Translations under genes and position numbers: made by a program
Notes under the pieces: model-generated
Seen by the model: only the letters and a program-made list of their open reading frames with translations
The model's database searches: none
Told to the model about the DNA's origin: nothing
DNA from: an uncultured Pelagibacteraceae bacterium
GTDB taxonomy: Bacteria; Pseudomonadota; Alphaproteobacteria; Pelagibacterales; Pelagibacteraceae
NCBI GenBank assembly: GCA_902515965.1
Contig: CABXWS010000002.1
Location: 1-32,300 of the forward strand
Direction of reading: 5' to 3'
DNA length: 32,300 bases
Shown: one piece after another, positions 2,186 through 32,290 of the stretch
Layout: each line of letters opens with the position of its first letter
Numbering within the stretch: the first letter of the stretch is position 1

Positions 2186-3514
2186 ATGAATAAAAAAATA
2201 TTTATAATGATCACTGCGTTTGCATTTGTATTCAATTCATTTGCTTTTGCAGATATCAAGTTCTGGACGACTGAAACTCAACCAGCAAGAATGGCTAAAC
2301 AAGAGGAAATGGCTAAAGCTTTCGAAGCAAAAACTGGTATTGGCGTGGAAGTAATTCCAATTGGTGAAAAGGACTTAGGTACAAGAGCAACAGCAGCGGC
2401 AGCAGCAGGAGATCTTCCTGATGTAATTTACCATACGCTTCAATATGTATTGCCGTGGGCTGAAGCAGGAATTTTAGATGTTGATGCAAATAATGACGTT
2501 GTTAAAACACTTGGACAGAAAACATTTGCTCCAGGTGCTTTAAAGATGGCTAAGAAGGGCGGCAAAATTGCAGCTGTACCTGTAGACGGCTGGACACAAA
2601 TGGTTGTTTATAGAAAAGATTTATTTGCAGACGCTGGTTTAGAGCCACCAACAACTTACGCAAACATAGAAAAGGCAATAGATACTTTATCTAGCAAAGA
2701 TATGTTCGGATTTGTTGCAGCAACTAAAACTGATGAGAACTTTATGAGTCAAGTTCTGGAACATGTTATGCTGGCGAATGGCGTAAATTTAGTTAAAAAA
2801 GGTGGAACTAAAAAACAAGGTCGAGCATTAAAGAATTCTTTAGAGTTTTACAAAAAATTAGCGAAAGCTAGTCCTCCAGGTGAACTTTATTGGAAACAGT
2901 CAAGAGAACTTTATTTTGCTGGCAAAACTCCAATGATAATTTGGTCACCATTTATCATGGACGAGTTAGCTGGTTTAAGAGACTCTGCACCGCCAACAAT
3001 TAATAGTGATCCAACATCATCTGAATTGGCTTCTAAAACAGGCTTTATTACTAATTTCAGTGGACCTAATAATGTTAAAGGTGCTGCATGGGCAGATGTT
3101 AGATACTTTGGAATAACAGCAGATGCAGATACAGATGAAGCTAAACAATTTATTCTTTATTCGATGGATGAAGGATATACGAGTACTTTATCTATAGCAC
3201 CAGAAGGCAAATTCCCAGTTAGAAGAGGTAATTCAAGTGACCCAAGTGCATTTACACAAGCTTGGAGTAAATTACCTGTCGGTGTTGATAGAAAAGCTCC
3301 TTTAACAGATCTATACTCAGCAGATGTAATTAACAATATTGTAGCTGGACTAGATACTGCTAATAGATGGGGAGTTAAAGAGGGTGAATTATCAAGAGCA
3401 TCTAAAATAATCAACTCACAATTCTTGAATAGAATCACTAGACAATTCATTGATGATCAATTAACTGTTGATCAAGCAGTTGATGAAATCAATACTGTAC
3501 TAGCTAATTTCTAG
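2186..3514 (+). CDS. ABC transporter extracellular solute-binding protein, family 1
   Basis: Signal peptide (MNKKIFIMITAFAFVFNSFAFA), SBP_bac_1-type sequence (TEKMAKAFEAKTGIGVEV-like start, DLPDVIYHTLQYVLPWAEAGILDVD), strong SD AGAGGGG 6 nt upstream, operon context. Confidence 0.92.
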   Translation: MNKKIFIMITAFAFVFNSFAFADIKFWTTETQPARMAKQEEMAKAFEAKTGIGVEVIPIGEKDLGTRATAAAAAGDLPDVIYHTLQYVLPWAEAGILDVDANNDVVKTLGQKTFAPGALKMAKKGGKIAAVPVDGWTQMVVYRKDLFADAGLEPPTTYANIEKAIDTLSSKDMFGFVAATKTDENFMSQVLEHVMLANGVNLVKKGGTKKQGRALKNSLEFYKKLAKASPPGELYWKQSRELYFAGKTPMIIWSPFIMDELAGLRDSAPPTINSDPTSSELASKTGFITNFSGPNNVKGAAWADVRYFGITADADTDEAKQFILYSMDEGYTSTLSIAPEGKFPVRRGNSSDPSAFTQAWSKLPVGVDRKAPLTDLYSADVINNIVAGLDTANRWGVKEGELSRASKIINSQFLNRITRQFIDDQLTVDQAVDEINTVLANF

Positions 3515-3530
3515 TAATTTAATAATTTTA

Positions 3531-3563
3531 AAAAGCGGATAATATTAATTATCCGCTTTTTTT
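3531..3563 (+). terminator. Hairpin with U-tract between binding-protein and permease genes; partial terminator/attenuator candidate
   Basis: GCGGATAAT (3535-3543), ATTA, ATTATCCGC (3548-3556), a perfect 9-bp stem followed by seven T (3557-3563). The next ATG is at 3566. Confidence 0.8.
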
Positions 3564-3565
3564 AT

Positions 3566-4825
3566 ATGACAACAAAACTTGCAAAAATTGAAAAAAGAAC
3601 AGCATATCTTTTAATATTTCCTTCGATCCTTTTAGTATTTTCTATAATTTTATTTCCAATATTCTCTAATATCTGGATAAGTTTTAAAAATGTTGAACTT
3701 AAAGATATCAGAATACCTGAACCAAGAGCAAAAAAATTAGTAAAATCGGTAACAGATAATCCAACAAAAATAAAAATAATTTATAAATTAAGAAACAGTT
3801 CACTTACTCAAGAAATTAAAAATGTTAAATTTAAAGATAAATTCCCAAAGGGTTTAGAAGCAATTAATTTAGATGAAAGGTGTCAATTTGAAAAAAATAT
3901 ACTTAAATGCGAATTTGGAAACTGGCCTGAAAAATATAGAGAACAACTAGAAATTGTTTTTCAAAATATAAAAGGGAAAGAAATACCAAAAAAAAAATTA
4001 AAATCTTTTAAACCTAATTTATCGGGCAAGTCACAGAACATACTGTTAACATATGAATTTACTCTAAATAACTTCAAAAAAGTAGTAAAAGACAAAGAAT
4101 TTATAGATCTACTATTAACTACATTTTATTACACATTTTTTGGAACTATAGGAGCGATTATATTTGGAGTTTTGGCTGCTCAACTAGTAAATCAAAAATT
4201 TTTTGGAAGAACATACATGAGAAGTGTTCTTCTCTTTCCATATGTTGCACCCGTTGTTGCACTTGCATATACTTGGGAACTTCTACTTGATCCAACGAGT
4301 GGAACTTTAAATAATTTATTAATTAATTATCAAATAATTGATGGACCAATAAATCTATTAGGTCAAAAATACGTAACTTTAAATATATTTGGTTTTGACT
4401 TTAAACTAAGATTAGCATTAACAACTGTAATAATTTTTGAAATTTGGAGATATTTTCCCTTAGCATTTTTATTTATTCTTGCCCGTCTTCAGGCTGTTCC
4501 AAAAGAACTATATGAAGCAGCTGATGTTGATGGAGCTGATCCTCTACAAAAATTTTTGAATATAACCTTACCTCAGATATTAGCTGTTATTTCAATTTTA
4601 TTCATGATTAGATTTATTTGGAATTTTAATAAATTTGAAGACATCTTTTTACTAACCGGAGGTGCATCAGGAACTAGGACATTGCCAATAAATGTTTATC
4701 AAAAAGGATTTTCTTTGGGAGATATTGGCATGGGTTCAGCCGTTTCTTTAGTGATAGTAGTATTTTTATTAGTTTTTATGTTTATCTATTTTAAACTTTT
4801 AGGAAAGAGAGCCAATGAAAGTTAA
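3566..4825 (+). CDS. ABC transporter permease, MalF/UgpA-like, with a ~118-aa extracytoplasmic insertion after TM1
   Basis: Binding-protein-dependent permease EAA-type motif (ELYEAADVDGADPLQKFLNITLPQI) and FTLNNFKKVVKDKEF; extra segment at residues ~46-163. Confidence 0.9.
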   Translation: MTTKLAKIEKRTAYLLIFPSILLVFSIILFPIFSNIWISFKNVELKDIRIPEPRAKKLVKSVTDNPTKIKIIYKLRNSSLTQEIKNVKFKDKFPKGLEAINLDERCQFEKNILKCEFGNWPEKYREQLEIVFQNIKGKEIPKKKLKSFKPNLSGKSQNILLTYEFTLNNFKKVVKDKEFIDLLLTTFYYTFFGTIGAIIFGVLAAQLVNQKFFGRTYMRSVLLFPYVAPVVALAYTWELLLDPTSGTLNNLLINYQIIDGPINLLGQKYVTLNIFGFDFKLRLALTTVIIFEIWRYFPLAFLFILARLQAVPKELYEAADVDGADPLQKFLNITLPQILAVISILFMIRFIWNFNKFEDIFLLTGGASGTRTLPINVYQKGFSLGDIGMGSAVSLVIVVFLLVFMFIYFKLLGKRANES

Positions 4826-7538: not shown

Positions 7539-10130
7539 ATGAATCTTTCAGAATTATTCGAAAAAAATGGATTTGATTTAGCTGATTTAAAGCAATCCTT
7601 TAAGCTTTTAGATGATATTTCAAATCATATTGTCTGCAATAAAGATGAGGTTATTGCTAAACAACATCAAATCTCAGATAAAATTTTCTTTTTAATAAAA
7701 GGAAAAGCAACATTTACGAAATATTTTGAAACTAAATCAATTACGTTTGCAAAAATTACAAAACCCGCAACACCGTTAGGTATATCTGGATTAAATCAAC
7801 CAAATAGATATATGGGCGAAATTTTTATTGAAGAAGGAACGGAGTATATTTCACTAGATTTAGATGAGTTAAATGATATTGAAAATAATAACAGTGAAGT
7901 TCTATCCCTCTTATATTCAGCAATAACTTTTTTTTCTTTCCAATTACTGGTTTCCTCAAGAAATTTAAACACTTTATATATAGATGACGAAGTTAATGTT
8001 TCGACAGGAATACCATCTGAAAAAAGTATTACCAATGTTCAAAAAATCAAATCGGCTACTTTTTTTTCTACTCTTAATGATAGTGATTTAGAAAAATTTA
8101 TAAAATTGGGCAATATAAAGATGTACCCATCTAACCAATATATAGTTAAAGAAGGAGATATATCTAGTGGTTTAAAAATCTTATTGAGTGGAAAAGTTGA
8201 TGGATTATTTCATAATTTTATTAATGGAAAAATCAGAAGAAATTTTAGAACTTTAACTAGAGCTGGTATAGCTTTAACATTATCTTCTGGTAAAGGAGAG
8301 TTTTTTAATCCATATACAATTAAATCTACTCGAGATACCAAAGTCTTGCATATTTCAAACGAAGCTTTAGCAGATTTAATTATTTCAGACCCACAACTGG
8401 CAACAAAAATTTTTAAGAGACAGTTATGGCAACTTGGAAGATATCAGCAGAGTGCTACTGGCTTAACTAAATACTCAGCTGAAAATGAGTTAGAATTTGT
8501 TAATCTTTTGTTAAAAGACAATACATCTAGAATACCGGCTAACTCAAAATTATATAGTATACCTCACTTATTAAAACACACTCACACTTATTCTTTGGCA
8601 TTTGATATTATTTATGAATTAATAATTAAAGGAAATGATATTGAAAAATCATTATCCAGTCTTATGAAAGATACTCTTAATAATTTAGAAAGAGAGTCTC
8701 GTTTTCATAACCAATTAAATATAATTTACAATAGAGTATCAAATGCTTCTAATCATACTGATAAAACTAAATTAAGAGAGTTGACTAATTCAAATTTTAT
8801 AAAAGCTTTTGATAATGTTAAATATGTTATTAAAGGATGGGATAATTTACCAGATGAGCCTACAAATATTTTTTTTTATAATCATTTGACAGCAATTGAT
8901 CAAAATCAACTCGCTAATGGACACTCCTTTTCAATAGATAGCCATTTCATAAGCTCAAAAATATTATATCCAAAATATAATGAAGGTGGACAACGAATTG
9001 TAAGAACAAGTAGAAATACCGAATTTTGGAGATATAATTATTACGAAAATCTAGATTATATTTTTGTTCATACACCTGAGTCTGATATTTTAACTGAAAG
9101 TGAGAGTGAAAAAAAATTAAGAAAACTTAAGCTTTTTGATCAAGCTCAAAAAGTAATTAATCAAAAACACCCAATTGTAATAGCTCCAGAAGGAACGTCC
9201 GAAACAGAAGATAATAAAACTCAAACATCTCCAGGACCATTTAAATCTGGAGCTTTTGATTTAGCGCTAAGATTAAAACCTAAACCAAAATTAATTCCAA
9301 TCGCACTCGCTAACTTTGATTATCCAATTTCAAAGACTATATATTCTGCCGTTATTAAAGAACCTATCGATATTAGTAAACATGTAAAAGATTTAGACAA
9401 TAATGAGGAAATGAAAAATTTTTTAGATAATTATAGAATTAAATTTAGGAAATACGTAGAAGAAGCTATTGATTTAGCTGAAAATATTGAAGACAACTTA
9501 AATAAATTTGAAAATTTAAAAACTAATATCAATCTCTTAAGTCCCGTAGAGGAGGAGTTTGAACTAGATGTGAGAGAGTTAGAACATAATTTTTTTCACC
9601 AAACAAAATCTAGCAAAAGCATCGTTCTTTATGGGAGTTCTACTTTCAGAATGTGGGATAATCCAAAAAGTGATCTTTCTACAAACAATATTTATAATTT
9701 AGGCTTTGGTGGGTCCACGTTAGTATCCTGTAGAAGATACTTTGATAGACTAGTAGCACCATTAAATCCATCAAACCTTTTTTTTTATGCAGGAGATAAT
9801 GATATTGGTTATGGTATGGATAGTAACGAATTACTGAAAGAATTTTTATTATTTTCATCTCAAGTTGATGAAAAATTACCAAGTGCAAAATGTTATTTTA
9901 TTTCAATTAAACCTAGTCCCTTCAGAAGAGATTTATTAAGTACAATTTTAGATGCTAATTCTAAAATAAAAAACCATTTATCCAAATTAAAAATGTGGGA
10001 TTATATAGACATTTCAACTCCTATGATAAACGCTGGTTATGATAAGTTTTACGATGAAGATCCACTGCATATGAATGAACTTGGATATAGTTTGTTAAGT
10101 AAGCTTGTAAGAGATAAAATTTACAATTAG
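7539..10130 (+). CDS. Three-module protein: cNMP-binding-like domains, PlsC-like acyltransferase and SGNH hydrolase
   Basis: N-terminus: two cNMP-BD-like units (VIAKQHQISDKIFFLIKGKATF; YIVKEGDISSGLKILLSGKVDG). Middle: NHLTAID (HX4D), APEGTSE and LIPIAL acyltransferase motifs. C-terminus: LYGSSTF, NLGFGGST, AGDNDIG and DPLHMNELGY SGNH blocks I, II, III and V. Confidence 0.85.
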   Translation: MNLSELFEKNGFDLADLKQSFKLLDDISNHIVCNKDEVIAKQHQISDKIFFLIKGKATFTKYFETKSITFAKITKPATPLGISGLNQPNRYMGEIFIEEGTEYISLDLDELNDIENNNSEVLSLLYSAITFFSFQLLVSSRNLNTLYIDDEVNVSTGIPSEKSITNVQKIKSATFFSTLNDSDLEKFIKLGNIKMYPSNQYIVKEGDISSGLKILLSGKVDGLFHNFINGKIRRNFRTLTRAGIALTLSSGKGEFFNPYTIKSTRDTKVLHISNEALADLIISDPQLATKIFKRQLWQLGRYQQSATGLTKYSAENELEFVNLLLKDNTSRIPANSKLYSIPHLLKHTHTYSLAFDIIYELIIKGNDIEKSLSSLMKDTLNNLERESRFHNQLNIIYNRVSNASNHTDKTKLRELTNSNFIKAFDNVKYVIKGWDNLPDEPTNIFFYNHLTAIDQNQLANGHSFSIDSHFISSKILYPKYNEGGQRIVRTSRNTEFWRYNYYENLDYIFVHTPESDILTESESEKKLRKLKLFDQAQKVINQKHPIVIAPEGTSETEDNKTQTSPGPFKSGAFDLALRLKPKPKLIPIALANFDYPISKTIYSAVIKEPIDISKHVKDLDNNEEMKNFLDNYRIKFRKYVEEAIDLAENIEDNLNKFENLKTNINLLSPVEEEFELDVRELEHNFFHQTKSSKSIVLYGSSTFRMWDNPKSDLSTNNIYNLGFGGSTLVSCRRYFDRLVAPLNPSNLFFYAGDNDIGYGMDSNELLKEFLLFSSQVDEKLPSAKCYFISIKPSPFRRDLLSTILDANSKIKNHLSKLKMWDYIDISTPMINAGYDKFYDEDPLHMNELGYSLLSKLVRDKIYN

Positions 10131-13576: not shown

Positions 13577-13646
13577 TTTAATAACTAGATCTAAAACCAT
13601 ATTTTATATAACATATTTGAATAAAAATAACTTAAGAGGGAAAAAT

Positions 13647-14621
13647 ATGAATAAATATTTTAAATTAATCGTTGTTTTATTCTCATCTTTATTTTTAAGT
13701 TTCGCAGCAAATTCAACTGAAGTAAAATTTGGACACGTAGGTAAGCCTGGTTCTTTATTTTCTGCATCTGTTGATCATTTTGCTAAACTTGCAAATGAGA
13801 GATTAGGCAGCAAAGGCAAGGTAACAGTTTTTGGTTCATCGCAACTTGGAAAAGATAAACAAGGTATGCAAAAACTAAAACTAGGAACTGTAAATATGTG
13901 GTTACCATCATCTGTGATGGCATCTATTCACGATGAGTTTGGTGTATTTGATATGCCTTTTATAATCAAAGATAGAAATCACATGAACAAAGTAGAAAGC
14001 CAAGTTTTACCTGGAATGTTTAAAAATTTGGAAGCTAAAACTGGATACAAGGTTATAGCTGTTTGGGAAAATGGTTTCAGACATATAACTAACAATACTA
14101 GACCAATTAATACTCCAGATGATTTAAAAGGAATTAAATTAAGAACTCCAAAATCAAAATGGAGAGTTAAAATGTTCCAATCATATGGTGCAAACCCAAC
14201 TCCAATGTCTTTTTCTGAAGTATTTACTGCTTTGAAAACAGGTACTATGGATGGTCAAGAAAACCCATATGCTCAAATAGCTAGTGCTAAATTTCAAGAA
14301 GTTCAAAAATATTTATCAATCACAGGTCACGTATATACTCCTGCTTATGTAACTGTACATAAAGACCATTGGAGCAAACTACCTGCTGATGTTCAAAGTA
14401 TTCTAGAACAAGCTGCTCAAGACACACAAAAATTTGTGTATGCTGAAGCTGCTAAACTTGAAAAATCTTTATTAGGTGTAATTAAATCTGCAGGAGTGCA
14501 AGTTAATGAAGCTAATAAGGGAGCTTTCATTAGTGCAAGTAAAGGAATATACGATCAATTTGCATCTGAAGTACCAACAGGTGGTGCTCTAGTTGATAAA
14601 GTATCTTCTTTAGCAAACTAA
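13647..14621 (+). CDS. TRAP transporter substrate-binding protein, DctP family (ORF track begins at TTG 13617; ATG 13647 preferred)
   Basis: SD AAGAGGG at 13634-13640, signal peptide MNKYFKLIVVLFSSLFLSFAANS, DctP motifs (GIKLRTPKSKWRVKMFQSYGANPTPMSFSEVFTALKTGTMDGQENP). Confidence 0.93.
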   Translation: MNKYFKLIVVLFSSLFLSFAANSTEVKFGHVGKPGSLFSASVDHFAKLANERLGSKGKVTVFGSSQLGKDKQGMQKLKLGTVNMWLPSSVMASIHDEFGVFDMPFIIKDRNHMNKVESQVLPGMFKNLEAKTGYKVIAVWENGFRHITNNTRPINTPDDLKGIKLRTPKSKWRVKMFQSYGANPTPMSFSEVFTALKTGTMDGQENPYAQIASAKFQEVQKYLSITGHVYTPAYVTVHKDHWSKLPADVQSILEQAAQDTQKFVYAEAAKLEKSLLGVIKSAGVQVNEANKGAFISASKGIYDQFASEVPTGGALVDKVSSLAN

Positions 14622-14641: not shown

Positions 14642-14666
14642 TCAGGCCCTCATTCAGAGGGCCTGA
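14642..14666 (+). promoter_or_regulatory. Strong intercistronic hairpin between dctP-like and dctQ-like genes
   Basis: TCAGGCCCTC, ATTCA, GAGGGCCTGA: perfect 10-bp GC-rich stem, no following U-tract; ATG of next gene at 14674. Confidence 0.8.
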
Positions 14667-14673
14667 ATATATT

Positions 14674-15183
14674 ATGAAATTACAAAAATTTATAAATATT
14701 TACGAAAAAATTTTAAAACTAATACTGTTTATAATGATGGTAGCATTAGCAGTTACAGTTTTACTTGGTGTTACTTTCCGATTTGCGGGCAGTGCTTTAG
14801 TTTGGTATGACGAAGTTGCTGCAGTCCAACTTGCTTGGATAACATATTATGGTTCAGCTTATGCAGCCTTAAAAGGTTCACATATAAGTGTTCCTAGTAT
14901 TTTTAAAGCCTTTCCATTACCTCTTAGAAAGATTTTCTTTGTAGTATCAAAATTGGTTGTCTACGGTTTTTTATTATTGTTAGCATATTATGGATATTTG
15001 GTACTAACTCTCATCACAGGAGAAACACTAGTAACTTTGGAATGGGTTCCTCAGACATTTGTTCAATCTGTTATTCCAATTGCTTCATGTCTATTCATAT
15101 TATCTGAAAGCTTAAGAATACCTGAAGATTATAAAAATTTAGTTCTTCAAACAACTGGGGAAGAGCAAACAGGAGATATTTAA
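14674..15183 (+). CDS. TRAP transporter small permease, DctQ family
   Basis: Four TM segments with typical DctQ pattern (VTLLGVTFRFAGSALVWYDEVAAVQLAWITYYGSAYAALKGSHISV). Confidence 0.92.
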   Translation: MKLQKFINIYEKILKLILFIMMVALAVTVLLGVTFRFAGSALVWYDEVAAVQLAWITYYGSAYAALKGSHISVPSIFKAFPLPLRKIFFVVSKLVVYGFLLLLAYYGYLVLTLITGETLVTLEWVPQTFVQSVIPIASCLFILSESLRIPEDYKNLVLQTTGEEQTGDI

Positions 15184-16466
15184 TGATTATTCTTACAATG
15201 TTTGCAGTTTTATTACTTCTTTTATCAATAAATGTACCTATAGCCATAGGTCTTGCAGTAACAACAATTATTGCAATGGTTATGAAAACAGGAACAAGTT
15301 TTTTAATAGATACAGCAATTGTTATGTTTGATGGGTCGATGAAATTTCCATTAATTGCTATACCTCTGTTCATTTTAGCTGGGTCAATAATGAATAGTGC
15401 AGGCATATCTAGAAGATTAATAGCTTTTGCATCGGCTCTTGTTGGATTTATTAAAGGAGGATTAAGTATGATTAATATCGCTACCTCCATGTTTTTTGCT
15501 GAAATATCTGGATCTGCAGTTGCTGATGTTGCAGCGTTAGGATCTATTTTAATACCAGCGATGAAGAAAAAAGGATATCCAGGTGCCTTTGCTGCTGCGG
15601 TTACTTCATCCTCTGCATCATTAGCGATTATCATTCCACCTTCAATACCAATGATTGTTTATGCAGTAATGGCTCAAAGTTCAGTAGTTCAATTGTTTGT
15701 TGCAGGAATTGTTCCTGGAGTAATTGGAGGATTTTTTTTAATGCTAGCCGCTTACATAACTGCAAGACGTAAAAATTTTCCAGTTGAAGAGACATTTAAT
15801 ATTCCAAATGTTAAAAAAACAGCAAAAGACGCAGCATTAGCATTTTTGTTACCTGTAATTATCCTAGGGGGAATTTTTGGTGGAGTTGTAACTGCAACAG
15901 AAGGAGCCGGATTGGCAGTTGTTGCATCTTTGGTAATTGGTTTTATTTATAAAGAAATTGACTTTAAAAGATTGTACGAGTCAGCTTGTGAAGGTGCAAT
16001 TCAAACAGCATCAGTCATGTTGTTAGTTGCAGCATCAGTTTTGTTAGGTGAGTTTTTAACAATCGAACAAATACCACAAAAGGTGGCAGAATCTATTATT
16101 GATTTTACAAATAATAAATATGCAGTCTTAGCAATCTTAAATGTTTTTCTTTTAGTTATTGGTTTCTTTTTACACTCAGTTGCTGCAATAATTTTGACAG
16201 TCCCAATAGTAATGCCATTAGTCAACGCAGTAGGTATAGACCCAGTTCATTTTGGAATAATAGTGACTTTGAATTTAGCAATTGGTCAACAAACACCTCC
16301 AGTTGCTAGTGTGTTAGTTACAGCGTGTTCAGTTGCCAAAGCTGATATTTGGGATGTAACAAGATCAAATATATCATTTATATGCGTATTGTTAATTTTG
16401 TTATTATTGGTGACTTATGTGCCAGCAATACCCATGACATTGGTTGAATATTTTTATAGGAGTTAA
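15183..16466 (+). CDS. TRAP transporter large permease, DctM family
   Basis: DctM motifs (FPLIAIPLFILAGSIMNSAGISRRLI; EISGSAVADVAALGSILIPAMKKKGYPGAFAAAVTSSSASLAIIIPPSIPMIVYA). TAATG overlap with the small permease gene. Confidence 0.95.
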   Translation: MIILTMFAVLLLLLSINVPIAIGLAVTTIIAMVMKTGTSFLIDTAIVMFDGSMKFPLIAIPLFILAGSIMNSAGISRRLIAFASALVGFIKGGLSMINIATSMFFAEISGSAVADVAALGSILIPAMKKKGYPGAFAAAVTSSSASLAIIIPPSIPMIVYAVMAQSSVVQLFVAGIVPGVIGGFFLMLAAYITARRKNFPVEETFNIPNVKKTAKDAALAFLLPVIILGGIFGGVVTATEGAGLAVVASLVIGFIYKEIDFKRLYESACEGAIQTASVMLLVAASVLLGEFLTIEQIPQKVAESIIDFTNNKYAVLAILNVFLLVIGFFLHSVAAIILTVPIVMPLVNAVGIDPVHFGIIVTLNLAIGQQTPPVASVLVTACSVAKADIWDVTRSNISFICVLLILLLLVTYVPAIPMTLVEYFYRS

Positions 16467-30525: not shown

Positions 30526-31617
30526 ATGAGAAAAATCATTTCAATGTTATTTGCTACATTTTTAGCAGTTGGATTTATTTCCAACGCAACAGCAAAAACA
30601 CTTAAGTGCCAAACAGTACTTAATCCAAAAGCGGATGAAGTTGTAATGTTAAAAGATTTTACAGATACTGTTACAGCACTAACAAGCGGTTCCCTAAAGT
30701 TTGAAATTATGCCAGCTGGAACTGTAGTTGGTGGAAAAGAAACTTTAGATGCAGTTGATAAAGGTTTAATTGACTGTGGATTTGCATGGACACACTACTG
30801 GTCAGGTGACCATCCTGCAGCAATGTTATTTGGTTCGCCAGTTGCTGGTGGAGGTGTAGGTATAGATAATTTAGCATTCTTATCATGGTTTCAATATGGT
30901 GGTGGTAAAGAACTATACGATAGATTATGGGACGAAATGGGAAGAGATATAAAAGGATTTATGCTTCAACCAGTTGGACCAGAAGCTTTAGGTTGGTTTC
31001 CTAAACCAATTAAAGACATGGCTGACTTTAGAAAATATAAATTTAGAACTCCTCCAGGAATTCCAGGACAAACATACAAAGATATAGGTATTGCATCAGT
31101 TGCTATGGGTGGTGGAGATATTCTACCAGCTTTGGAAGCAGGAACTATCGATGCTGCTGAATGGTGTTGTCCAAAACCTGATATGGTATTTGGATTTCAA
31201 AAAGTTTTAAAGCACTACTATTTACAAGGTTTACACCAAGTAGTTGTTAATGCTGACTTCTATATTACTGGAAAGACTTATGATGCTATGAGCGATCATG
31301 AAAAGAAATCTTTAGAGGTAGCAGCTAATGCTTCTTTAAATAAATCTTTAAGTAGAAGAATATATGAAAATGGTAAGGCATTAAGAGAACTAACAACAAA
31401 ACATGGAGTAATTTTAGAAGATACACCTTCTGATTATTTCACTGAATATATGGCTGCAGCAAAAGCAACATTGAATAAAAACTCTGAGCAGAACGCTTTC
31501 TTCAAAGAAGTTTATGATTCAATGAAAGAATTTGCAGATATAGCAGTACCATTTTGGAGTGGAGCGCAAATGTCAAACGCTAAACTTGGAATGGCTCACG
31601 CAGCTACATTAAAATAA
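30526..31617 (+). CDS. TRAP transporter substrate-binding protein, DctP/TakP-like
   Basis: Signal peptide MRKIISMLFATFLAVGFISNATA, SD GAGAGGG, KFRTPPGIPGQTYKDIGIASVAMGGGDILPALEAGTIDAAEWCCPKPD. Confidence 0.92.
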   Translation: MRKIISMLFATFLAVGFISNATAKTLKCQTVLNPKADEVVMLKDFTDTVTALTSGSLKFEIMPAGTVVGGKETLDAVDKGLIDCGFAWTHYWSGDHPAAMLFGSPVAGGGVGIDNLAFLSWFQYGGGKELYDRLWDEMGRDIKGFMLQPVGPEALGWFPKPIKDMADFRKYKFRTPPGIPGQTYKDIGIASVAMGGGDILPALEAGTIDAAEWCCPKPDMVFGFQKVLKHYYLQGLHQVVVNADFYITGKTYDAMSDHEKKSLEVAANASLNKSLSRRIYENGKALRELTTKHGVILEDTPSDYFTEYMAAAKATLNKNSEQNAFFKEVYDSMKEFADIAVPFWSGAQMSNAKLGMAHAATLK

Positions 31618-31631
31618 TTAAACACTTAAAT

Positions 31632-31657
31632 TAGAGCGGACTTAATTGTCCGCTCTA
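31632..31657 (+). promoter_or_regulatory. Strong intercistronic hairpin between second dctP-like and dctQ-like genes
   Basis: TAGAGCGGAC, TTAATT, GTCCGCTCTA: perfect 10-bp stem, no immediate U-tract; next ATG at 31676. Confidence 0.8.
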
Positions 31658-31675
31658 TCATAAAAATTTTTCTTT

Positions 31676-32290
31676 ATGTCAGATGAAATAAATAAATTAG
31701 ATATTTCTGATGAAATGATTGCTGAAAGAAGAGGCAATCAAAATAAAATGCCAGATGATATGCCAAAATTAATGGCAAATATCATATTAAAAATTGACAA
31801 ATTTAGTAAAATTGTAGGAAACATAGTTTGCTGGATAACTGTTCCATTAATTTTAGCTATGACTTACGAAGTTCTAGCTAGAAAACTATTTTTAGCACCG
31901 ACATATTGGGCATACGATATGAGTCGTTTTTTGTATGGAGCTCTTTTTATGCTCGGGGCAGGATATGCATTATCCAAAGGAGTTCATATAAGAGCAGATT
32001 TTTTATACAGAAATTTTAAAACCAAAACACAAGGTATAATAGATTTTTGGCTTTATATTTTATTTTATTTTCCGGGCATGCTTGTATTTTGTTATATGAC
32101 AGTTGGTTTTGTGGAAGAGTCGATACGTAGAGGTGATAAAGGAATGGATACGGCTTGGATGCCATTTCTTTGGCCAATAAAAACATGTTTACTTGTTGGT
32201 ATCATTTTTCTTTTAATTCAAGGCATATCTGAATTGTTAAAAAGTTATTGGGCCGCAACAAGAGGCAAATGGCCTGGACAAGATAAATGA
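31676..32290 (+). CDS. TRAP transporter small permease, DctQ family
   Basis: VTVPLILAMTYEVLARKLFLAPTYWAYDMSRFLYGALFMLGAGYALSKGVHIRADF; position after the DctP gene. Confidence 0.92.
   Translation: MSDEINKLDISDEMIAERRGNQNKMPDDMPKLMANIILKIDKFSKIVGNIVCWITVPLILAMTYEVLARKLFLAPTYWAYDMSRFLYGALFMLGAGYALSKGVHIRADFLYRNFKTKTQGIIDFWLYILFYFPGMLVFCYMTVGFVEESIRRGDKGMDTAWMPFLWPIKTCLLVGIIFLLIQGISELLKSYWAATRGKWPGQDK

Follow-up and report, generated by a model that had tools for sequence, protein, structure and literature searches.

In E. coli, an intercistronic structure between malE and malF was reportedly described by Newbury in 1987; the malE structure is made up of REP sequences, a dispersed repeat. A stem-loop is also said to have been noted after dctP of Rhodobacter capsulatus, and R. 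capsulatus puf is an example of the hairpins that act in selective RNA processing and stabilisation (SRPS). Hairpins of the SRPS type are also found in the clostridial cip-cel operon (PMC4423207, PMC10311766). In E. coli, the mRNAs of malE and of four other substrate-binding proteins (SBPs) are stabilised, and 26 of the 34 stabilised upstream segments terminate in a stable hairpin (Dar and Sorek, 2018, PMC5927463). In cellulolytic clostridia, internal intrinsic terminators follow the SBP genes of ABC-importer operons; reporters in Ruminiclostridium revealed partial termination after the SBP gene with efficiencies of 21-96%, and at least 15 E. coli cases of such internal terminators have been listed (Wu et al., 2022, PMC9045158).

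The SAR11 hairpins analysed here resemble the clostridial SBP terminators (PMC9045158) in that a stem-loop with a GC-rich stem and a variable or weak U-tract lies between the SBP and the permease gene, and by this precedent they would serve the same purpose. Unlike their clostridial counterparts (PMC9045158), the SAR11 stems are short (8-18 bp), are found in a genome of 30% GC and also stand behind the SBPs of TRAP (DctP) and tricarboxylate (TctC) transporters. As in malE-malF, a stable hairpin is present in the SBP-permease spacer and the SBP gene is the one needing excess, whereas the sequence of each SAR11 stem is unique and a U-tract often follows it. With SRPS hairpins they share the setting of operon stoichiometry by a 3' hairpin, which in SAR11 is a proposed role; the SAR11 operons differ from cip-cel and puf.

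The window, by which we mean the whole 32.3 kb stretch of DNA that was analysed (30% GC), contains 17 perfect Watson-Crick stems of at least 8 bp with a loop of 3-12 nt, and only three of these have at least 9 bp and at least four G/C pairs (sites 1 to 3, Table 1). All three lie in SBP-to-permease spacers, one for each SBP gene, as an earlier note on this DNA had claimed along with the lack of a comparable hairpin at the other junctions it had looked at. The operon structure was confirmed by Pfam (SBP_bac_8/1 followed by BPD_transp_1; DctP by DctQ and DctM; DctP by DctQ), and a search with six SBP families found no further SBP in the window. The site 1 hairpin has the shape of a canonical intrinsic terminator, U-tract included, and the permease ATG is located 4 nt downstream. 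The site 2 hairpin has no U-tract, stops 7 nt short of the dctQ ATG and is present at 5/5 loci of its ortholog cluster; no hairpin accompanies the dctQ-dctM junction of this operon, at which the genes overlap. That the stems are not a dispersed repeat was also borne out, as the three sequences are mutually unrelated and single-copy. A repeat of the REP type was rejected, each stem sequence being found in the window's own genome only at its own two arms, and an origin from a dispersed repeat or mobile element remnant has a vanishingly small probability: the stems differ between sites, each occurs once per genome, and neither the stem counts nor Rfam gave any supporting evidence. Rfam matches above the gathering score (riboswitch, attenuator and the like) numbered zero in the window. 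Elsewhere in the window, positions 7539-10130 encode an 863-aa protein with an unusual domain set, in which cyclic-nucleotide-binding, acyltransferase and GDSL-lipase-like matches are combined in one chain.

Table 1. Transporter genes and intercistronic hairpins of the window
Feature	Position	Strand	Description	Support
ABC SBP gene	2186..3514	+	ABC substrate-binding protein (SBP_bac_8 / SBP_bac_1)	Pfam, family search
Site 1 hairpin	3530..3561	+	ABC SBP-permease spacer; 14-bp stem AAAAAGCGGATAAT, loop ATTA, 7-T run	
ABC permease gene	3566..4825	+	BPD_transp_1	Pfam
dctP (site 2 operon)	13617..14621	+	TRAP substrate-binding protein	PF03480
Site 2 hairpin	14642..14666	+	dctP-dctQ spacer; 10-bp stem TCAGGCCCTC, loop ATTCA	
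dctQ (site 2 operon)	14674..15183	+	partner of site 2 dctP	PF04290
dctM (site 2 operon)	15183..16466	+		PF06808
dctP (site 3 operon)	30526..31617	+	TRAP substrate-binding protein, 363 aa, signal peptide	PF03480
Site 3 hairpin	31632..31657	+	dctP-dctQ spacer; TAGAGCGGAC-TTAATT-GTCCGCTCTA, 10-bp perfect stem, loop TTAATT	
dctQ (site 3 operon)	31676..32290	+	TRAP small membrane subunit, 204 aa	PF04290

The hairpin at site 3 was found exactly where the note had described it, 14 nt past the dctP stop and 18 nt short of the dctQ ATG, and the spacer has a minimum free energy of -20.0 kcal/mol compared with -4.2 +/- 1.9 for shuffled sequences (z = -8.6). With six G/C pairs in 10 bp, its stem is of the GC-rich kind, about 7 bp or more, that is typical of intrinsic terminators. 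The GC core is followed by TATCATAAA, in which 3 of 9 positions are T, fewer than in the U-tract of an intrinsic terminator, and the segment 31658-31675 (+), TCATAAAAATTTTTCTTT, looks like an eroded U-tract, whereas most orthologs carry U6-8 directly 3' of the stem. Because a U-rich tract directly after the stem is missing, we do not class the window copy as an intrinsic terminator, while its ortholog group is terminator-like.

A search of GTDB genomes retrieved 80 Pelagibacteraceae dctP loci with 90-98% protein identity (closest AG-470-G21, 98%), and a hairpin of dG <= -16 is present in the dctP-dctQ spacer of all 80 close orthologs; it is retained as well at 16 additional loci from the whole-genome set, four of which have more diverged DctPs. 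In an alignment of 56 site 3 spacers, 99.8% of the cells are paired and double changes occur at 5 of the 10 pairs; the double-change cells number 16 as against 1.8 expected (0/500 shuffles), and all covariation measures are above those of the shuffles. Mean pairwise column identity is 0.94 in the stem and 0.72/0.69 in the flanks. Due to these compensatory changes and the stem columns being more conserved than the flanks, the alignment indicates that selection maintains base pairing at site 3. The earlier statement that position and not sequence is conserved is correct among the three sites of the window, but not across the site 3 orthologs, in which the stem sequence is conserved too (GAGCGGAC). 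In 65 of the 71 distinct orthologous spacers, the 9 nt 3' of the GC core include 6 T or more, which suggests a leaky terminator as the ancestral element. In the window copy and in L243, its closest relative, the U-tract has been lost (3 of 9) but the stem persists.

Placement behind SBP genes was assessed in a complete same-genus relative (G012; one contig of 1,343,202 bp, 1404 genes called) and in the draft genome to which the window belongs (G000; completeness 54%, 649 of 743 kb used, 681 genes called) by scoring the best perfect-stem hairpin in each co-directional spacer. Family searches and Pfam scans of hairpin-bearing genes served to identify SBP genes, and hairpin-less SBPs were picked out from the list of exported proteins. 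With the main cut (spacers of 20-150 nt, dG <= -12), the comparison set beforehand, hairpin frequency in SBP as against other spacers, gave 13/16 versus 9/221 in G012 (p = 2.9e-13) and 14/16 versus 2/96 in G000 (p = 5.8e-14), and the same enrichment was seen at other cut-offs in both genomes. Taken together, a hairpin follows 80-90% of the SBP genes in G012 and G000 and 2-4% of the other length-matched co-directional spacers, with a slight upward bias in the SBP fractions of these two genomes since the PstS, SBP_bac_8, Peripla_BP_4 and TctC SBPs were recognised via their hairpin. The SBP loci of relatives are free of that bias, as they were chosen by family search alone (DctP, SBP_bac_1, 3, 5, Peripla_BP_6, OpuAC). 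In the window's family, 73/79 SBP loci, a count that takes in those of G000 and G012, have a hairpin as compared with 1/62 other co-directional junctions of the same loci; for a second family of the order the numbers are 11/16 and 3/31. The two families combined have a stem-loop in 84/95 SBP co-directional spacers, and several of the misses among relatives are hairpins with a loop above the scoring limit of 10 (L012, L189, L168, L169). When SBPs are clustered at 55% identity, 32 of the 39 groups carry a hairpin. Hairpins occur behind SBPs of the TRAP, ABC and tricarboxylate types. The general rule put forward in the earlier note is thus confirmed as to position, in G012, G000 and the further genomes.

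Among the SBPs lacking a hairpin are an SBP_bac_3 protein of G012 (655629), an SBP_bac_5 protein (G004), a DctP (G000 C51) and two metal-type SBPs of G012, an iron-type protein (809075) and ZnuA (569583), neither of which has a GC-rich hairpin; ZnuA of G000 (C47:1831) is followed by a weak AT-rich stem only. The iron operon of P. ubique shows graded induction, with sfuC induced 16x, sfuB 10x and sfuA 5x (PMC2864753). Strong co-directional hairpins that do not follow an SBP gene are located at 91900, 210099, 437587, 983364, 1126862 and 1282534 in G012 and at C40:3788 in G000; the genes in front of them belong to highly transcribed SAR11 classes such as groEL and proteorhodopsin, which are named in full below.

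We consider it very probable that the intercistronic hairpins raise the level of the upstream SBP mRNA above that of the downstream permease mRNA within one operon. To this end, RNA polymerase would exit the SBP gene and transcribe the hairpin. Where a U-tract is present, as at site 1 and in most site 3 orthologs, some polymerases would terminate and the remainder would read into the permease gene. Either through this termination or through RNase cleavage further downstream, SBP transcripts would come to end at the hairpin, which would stop 3'-5' exonucleases and extend the lifetime of the SBP transcript. At sites without a U-tract, such as window sites 2 and 3, exonuclease protection is expected to dominate, and site 3, with its stable hairpin 3' of an SBP gene inside an operon, has the make-up of a malE-type decay barrier. 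Whereas the anatomy of the hairpins, their enrichment behind SBP genes and the selection on their pairing are shown by the sequences, leaky termination, stabilisation and the resulting SBP:permease ratio, the other part of the rule proposed earlier, are what we infer for SAR11 from the E. coli and clostridial precedents (PMC5927463, PMC9045158) and from the dominance of SBP transcripts. An excess of SBP over permease is consistent with the list of the most-transcribed SAR11 genes in situ, which is topped by SBP genes (PMC5069720, Table 2).

The hairpins might instead be full terminators that make the SBP gene its own transcription unit, with the permease expressed from a separate, weaker promoter within the SBP gene or the spacer. 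Many of them are indeed canonical intrinsic terminators with U7-8; we nevertheless regard this as unlikely, as the hairpin ends 0-35 nt from the permease start at 70 of 84 sites, so that such a promoter would have to sit within or upstream of the terminator, and several hairpins have no U-tract. A scan near site 3 yielded a 9/12 promoter match at 31586-31615, and matches there are no more numerous than in shuffled sequences. An independent promoter for the permease 3' of the hairpin was therefore rejected; most sites leave too little room for one, so that read-through is needed, although some permeases could be served by a promoter that overlaps the hairpin or lies upstream of it. Conversely, the hairpins might be pure 3' stabilisers of the malE type, without termination and with incidental U-tracts. 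The stems kept at window sites 2 and 3 without U-tracts and the E. coli SBP mRNAs stabilised in this way (PMC5927463) would fit this reading, which appears rather doubtful to us given the U-tract right after the stem in nearly all distinct site 3 orthologs and a T content of SBP hairpins no lower than that of hairpins where gene ends converge (in G012 and G000, the 9 nt that follow the GC core include 6 T or more in 17/27 and 9/22 cases, respectively). On the other hand, about one third of the SBP hairpins, those at window sites 2 and 3 among them, have no good U-tract, and termination alone is hence insufficient to account for all of them. Leaky termination and 3' stabilisation both fit the hairpin anatomy and are not mutually exclusive, and we conclude that the general role is probably that of a leaky terminator and 3' stabiliser, acting mostly as a stabiliser at the U-less window sites 2 and 3.

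It is still less probable that the hairpins act mainly in translational control, by masking the ribosome-binding region at the permease start. In favour of this, 28/84 hairpins are separated from the start codon of the permease by no more than 10 nt, and a number of these by 0-4 nt; most hairpins, including that of site 3, lie further away. Sequestration of the Shine-Dalgarno sequence by a G-rich 3' arm was rejected, as the ratio of G-rich to C-rich 3' arms is 18:9 for abutting and 28:19 for distant hairpins, which is no clear difference. At some loci, translational control may come on top of the main effect. In one TRAP subgroup (L014, L022, L023, L024, L025, L026, L005, L006), the hairpin ends 0-6 nt from the dctQ start codon, and this placement could additionally hinder translation initiation. 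The strongest alternative framing, to which we would give somewhat less than an even chance, is that any SAR11 gene with high expression has its 3' end marked by such a hairpin and that SBP genes are simply highly expressed. The hairpins are enriched behind SBP genes but not exclusive to them, since strong hairpins in G012 also follow the genes for groEL, proteorhodopsin, HU, an OmpA-family lipoprotein, a cold-shock protein and a Na+/solute symporter, and several of these gene classes are among the most-transcribed SAR11 genes (PMC5069720). High expression leaves unexplained why the hairpins are placed before a permease gene of the same operon. We regard it as partly true, and as broader than and compatible with the proposal that the hairpins raise SBP over permease mRNA.

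Outside SAR11, in roughly 11 of 27 dctP loci (~40%) from other Alphaproteobacteria the next gene is preceded by a perfect hairpin that is strong and significant against shuffles, for example L360 with a 21 bp stem of -41.7 kcal/mol after dctP; this is a lower bound, as perfect stems alone were scored, and one more positive locus of the sample (L343-L370), L356, belongs to the window's own family. Because of these loci, the SBP-hairpin device is not specific to SAR11; nor is it new. What is notable in SAR11 is its near-universality over ABC, TRAP and tricarboxylate importers, in a genome with a median co-directional spacer of 2 nt. A search of the open literature, with subscription journals outside its reach, found no description of a SAR11 rule of hairpins behind SBP genes and nothing relevant on dctPQM stem-loops.

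SAR11 bacteria are among the most abundant marine heterotrophs, and their uptake of dissolved matter relies on very abundant periplasmic binding proteins. To our knowledge, it is seldom discussed how many SBPs per permease are made from one SAR11 operon, and a cis element behind most SBP genes is a concrete, testable answer to this question. In metatranscriptomes, the transcript levels of an SBP and its permease should accordingly not be expected to be equal. More tentatively, given spacers of ~2-3 nt and few regulators, one might speculate that hairpins are a principal general device by which SAR11 uncouples gene dosage within operons, concentrated on the SBP-permease junctions of ABC, TRAP and TTT importers and on the few most expressed genes, with hairpin strength and U-tract tuned to each SBP:permease ratio. 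If this were true, the sequence by itself would suffice to predict the SBP:permease ratio.
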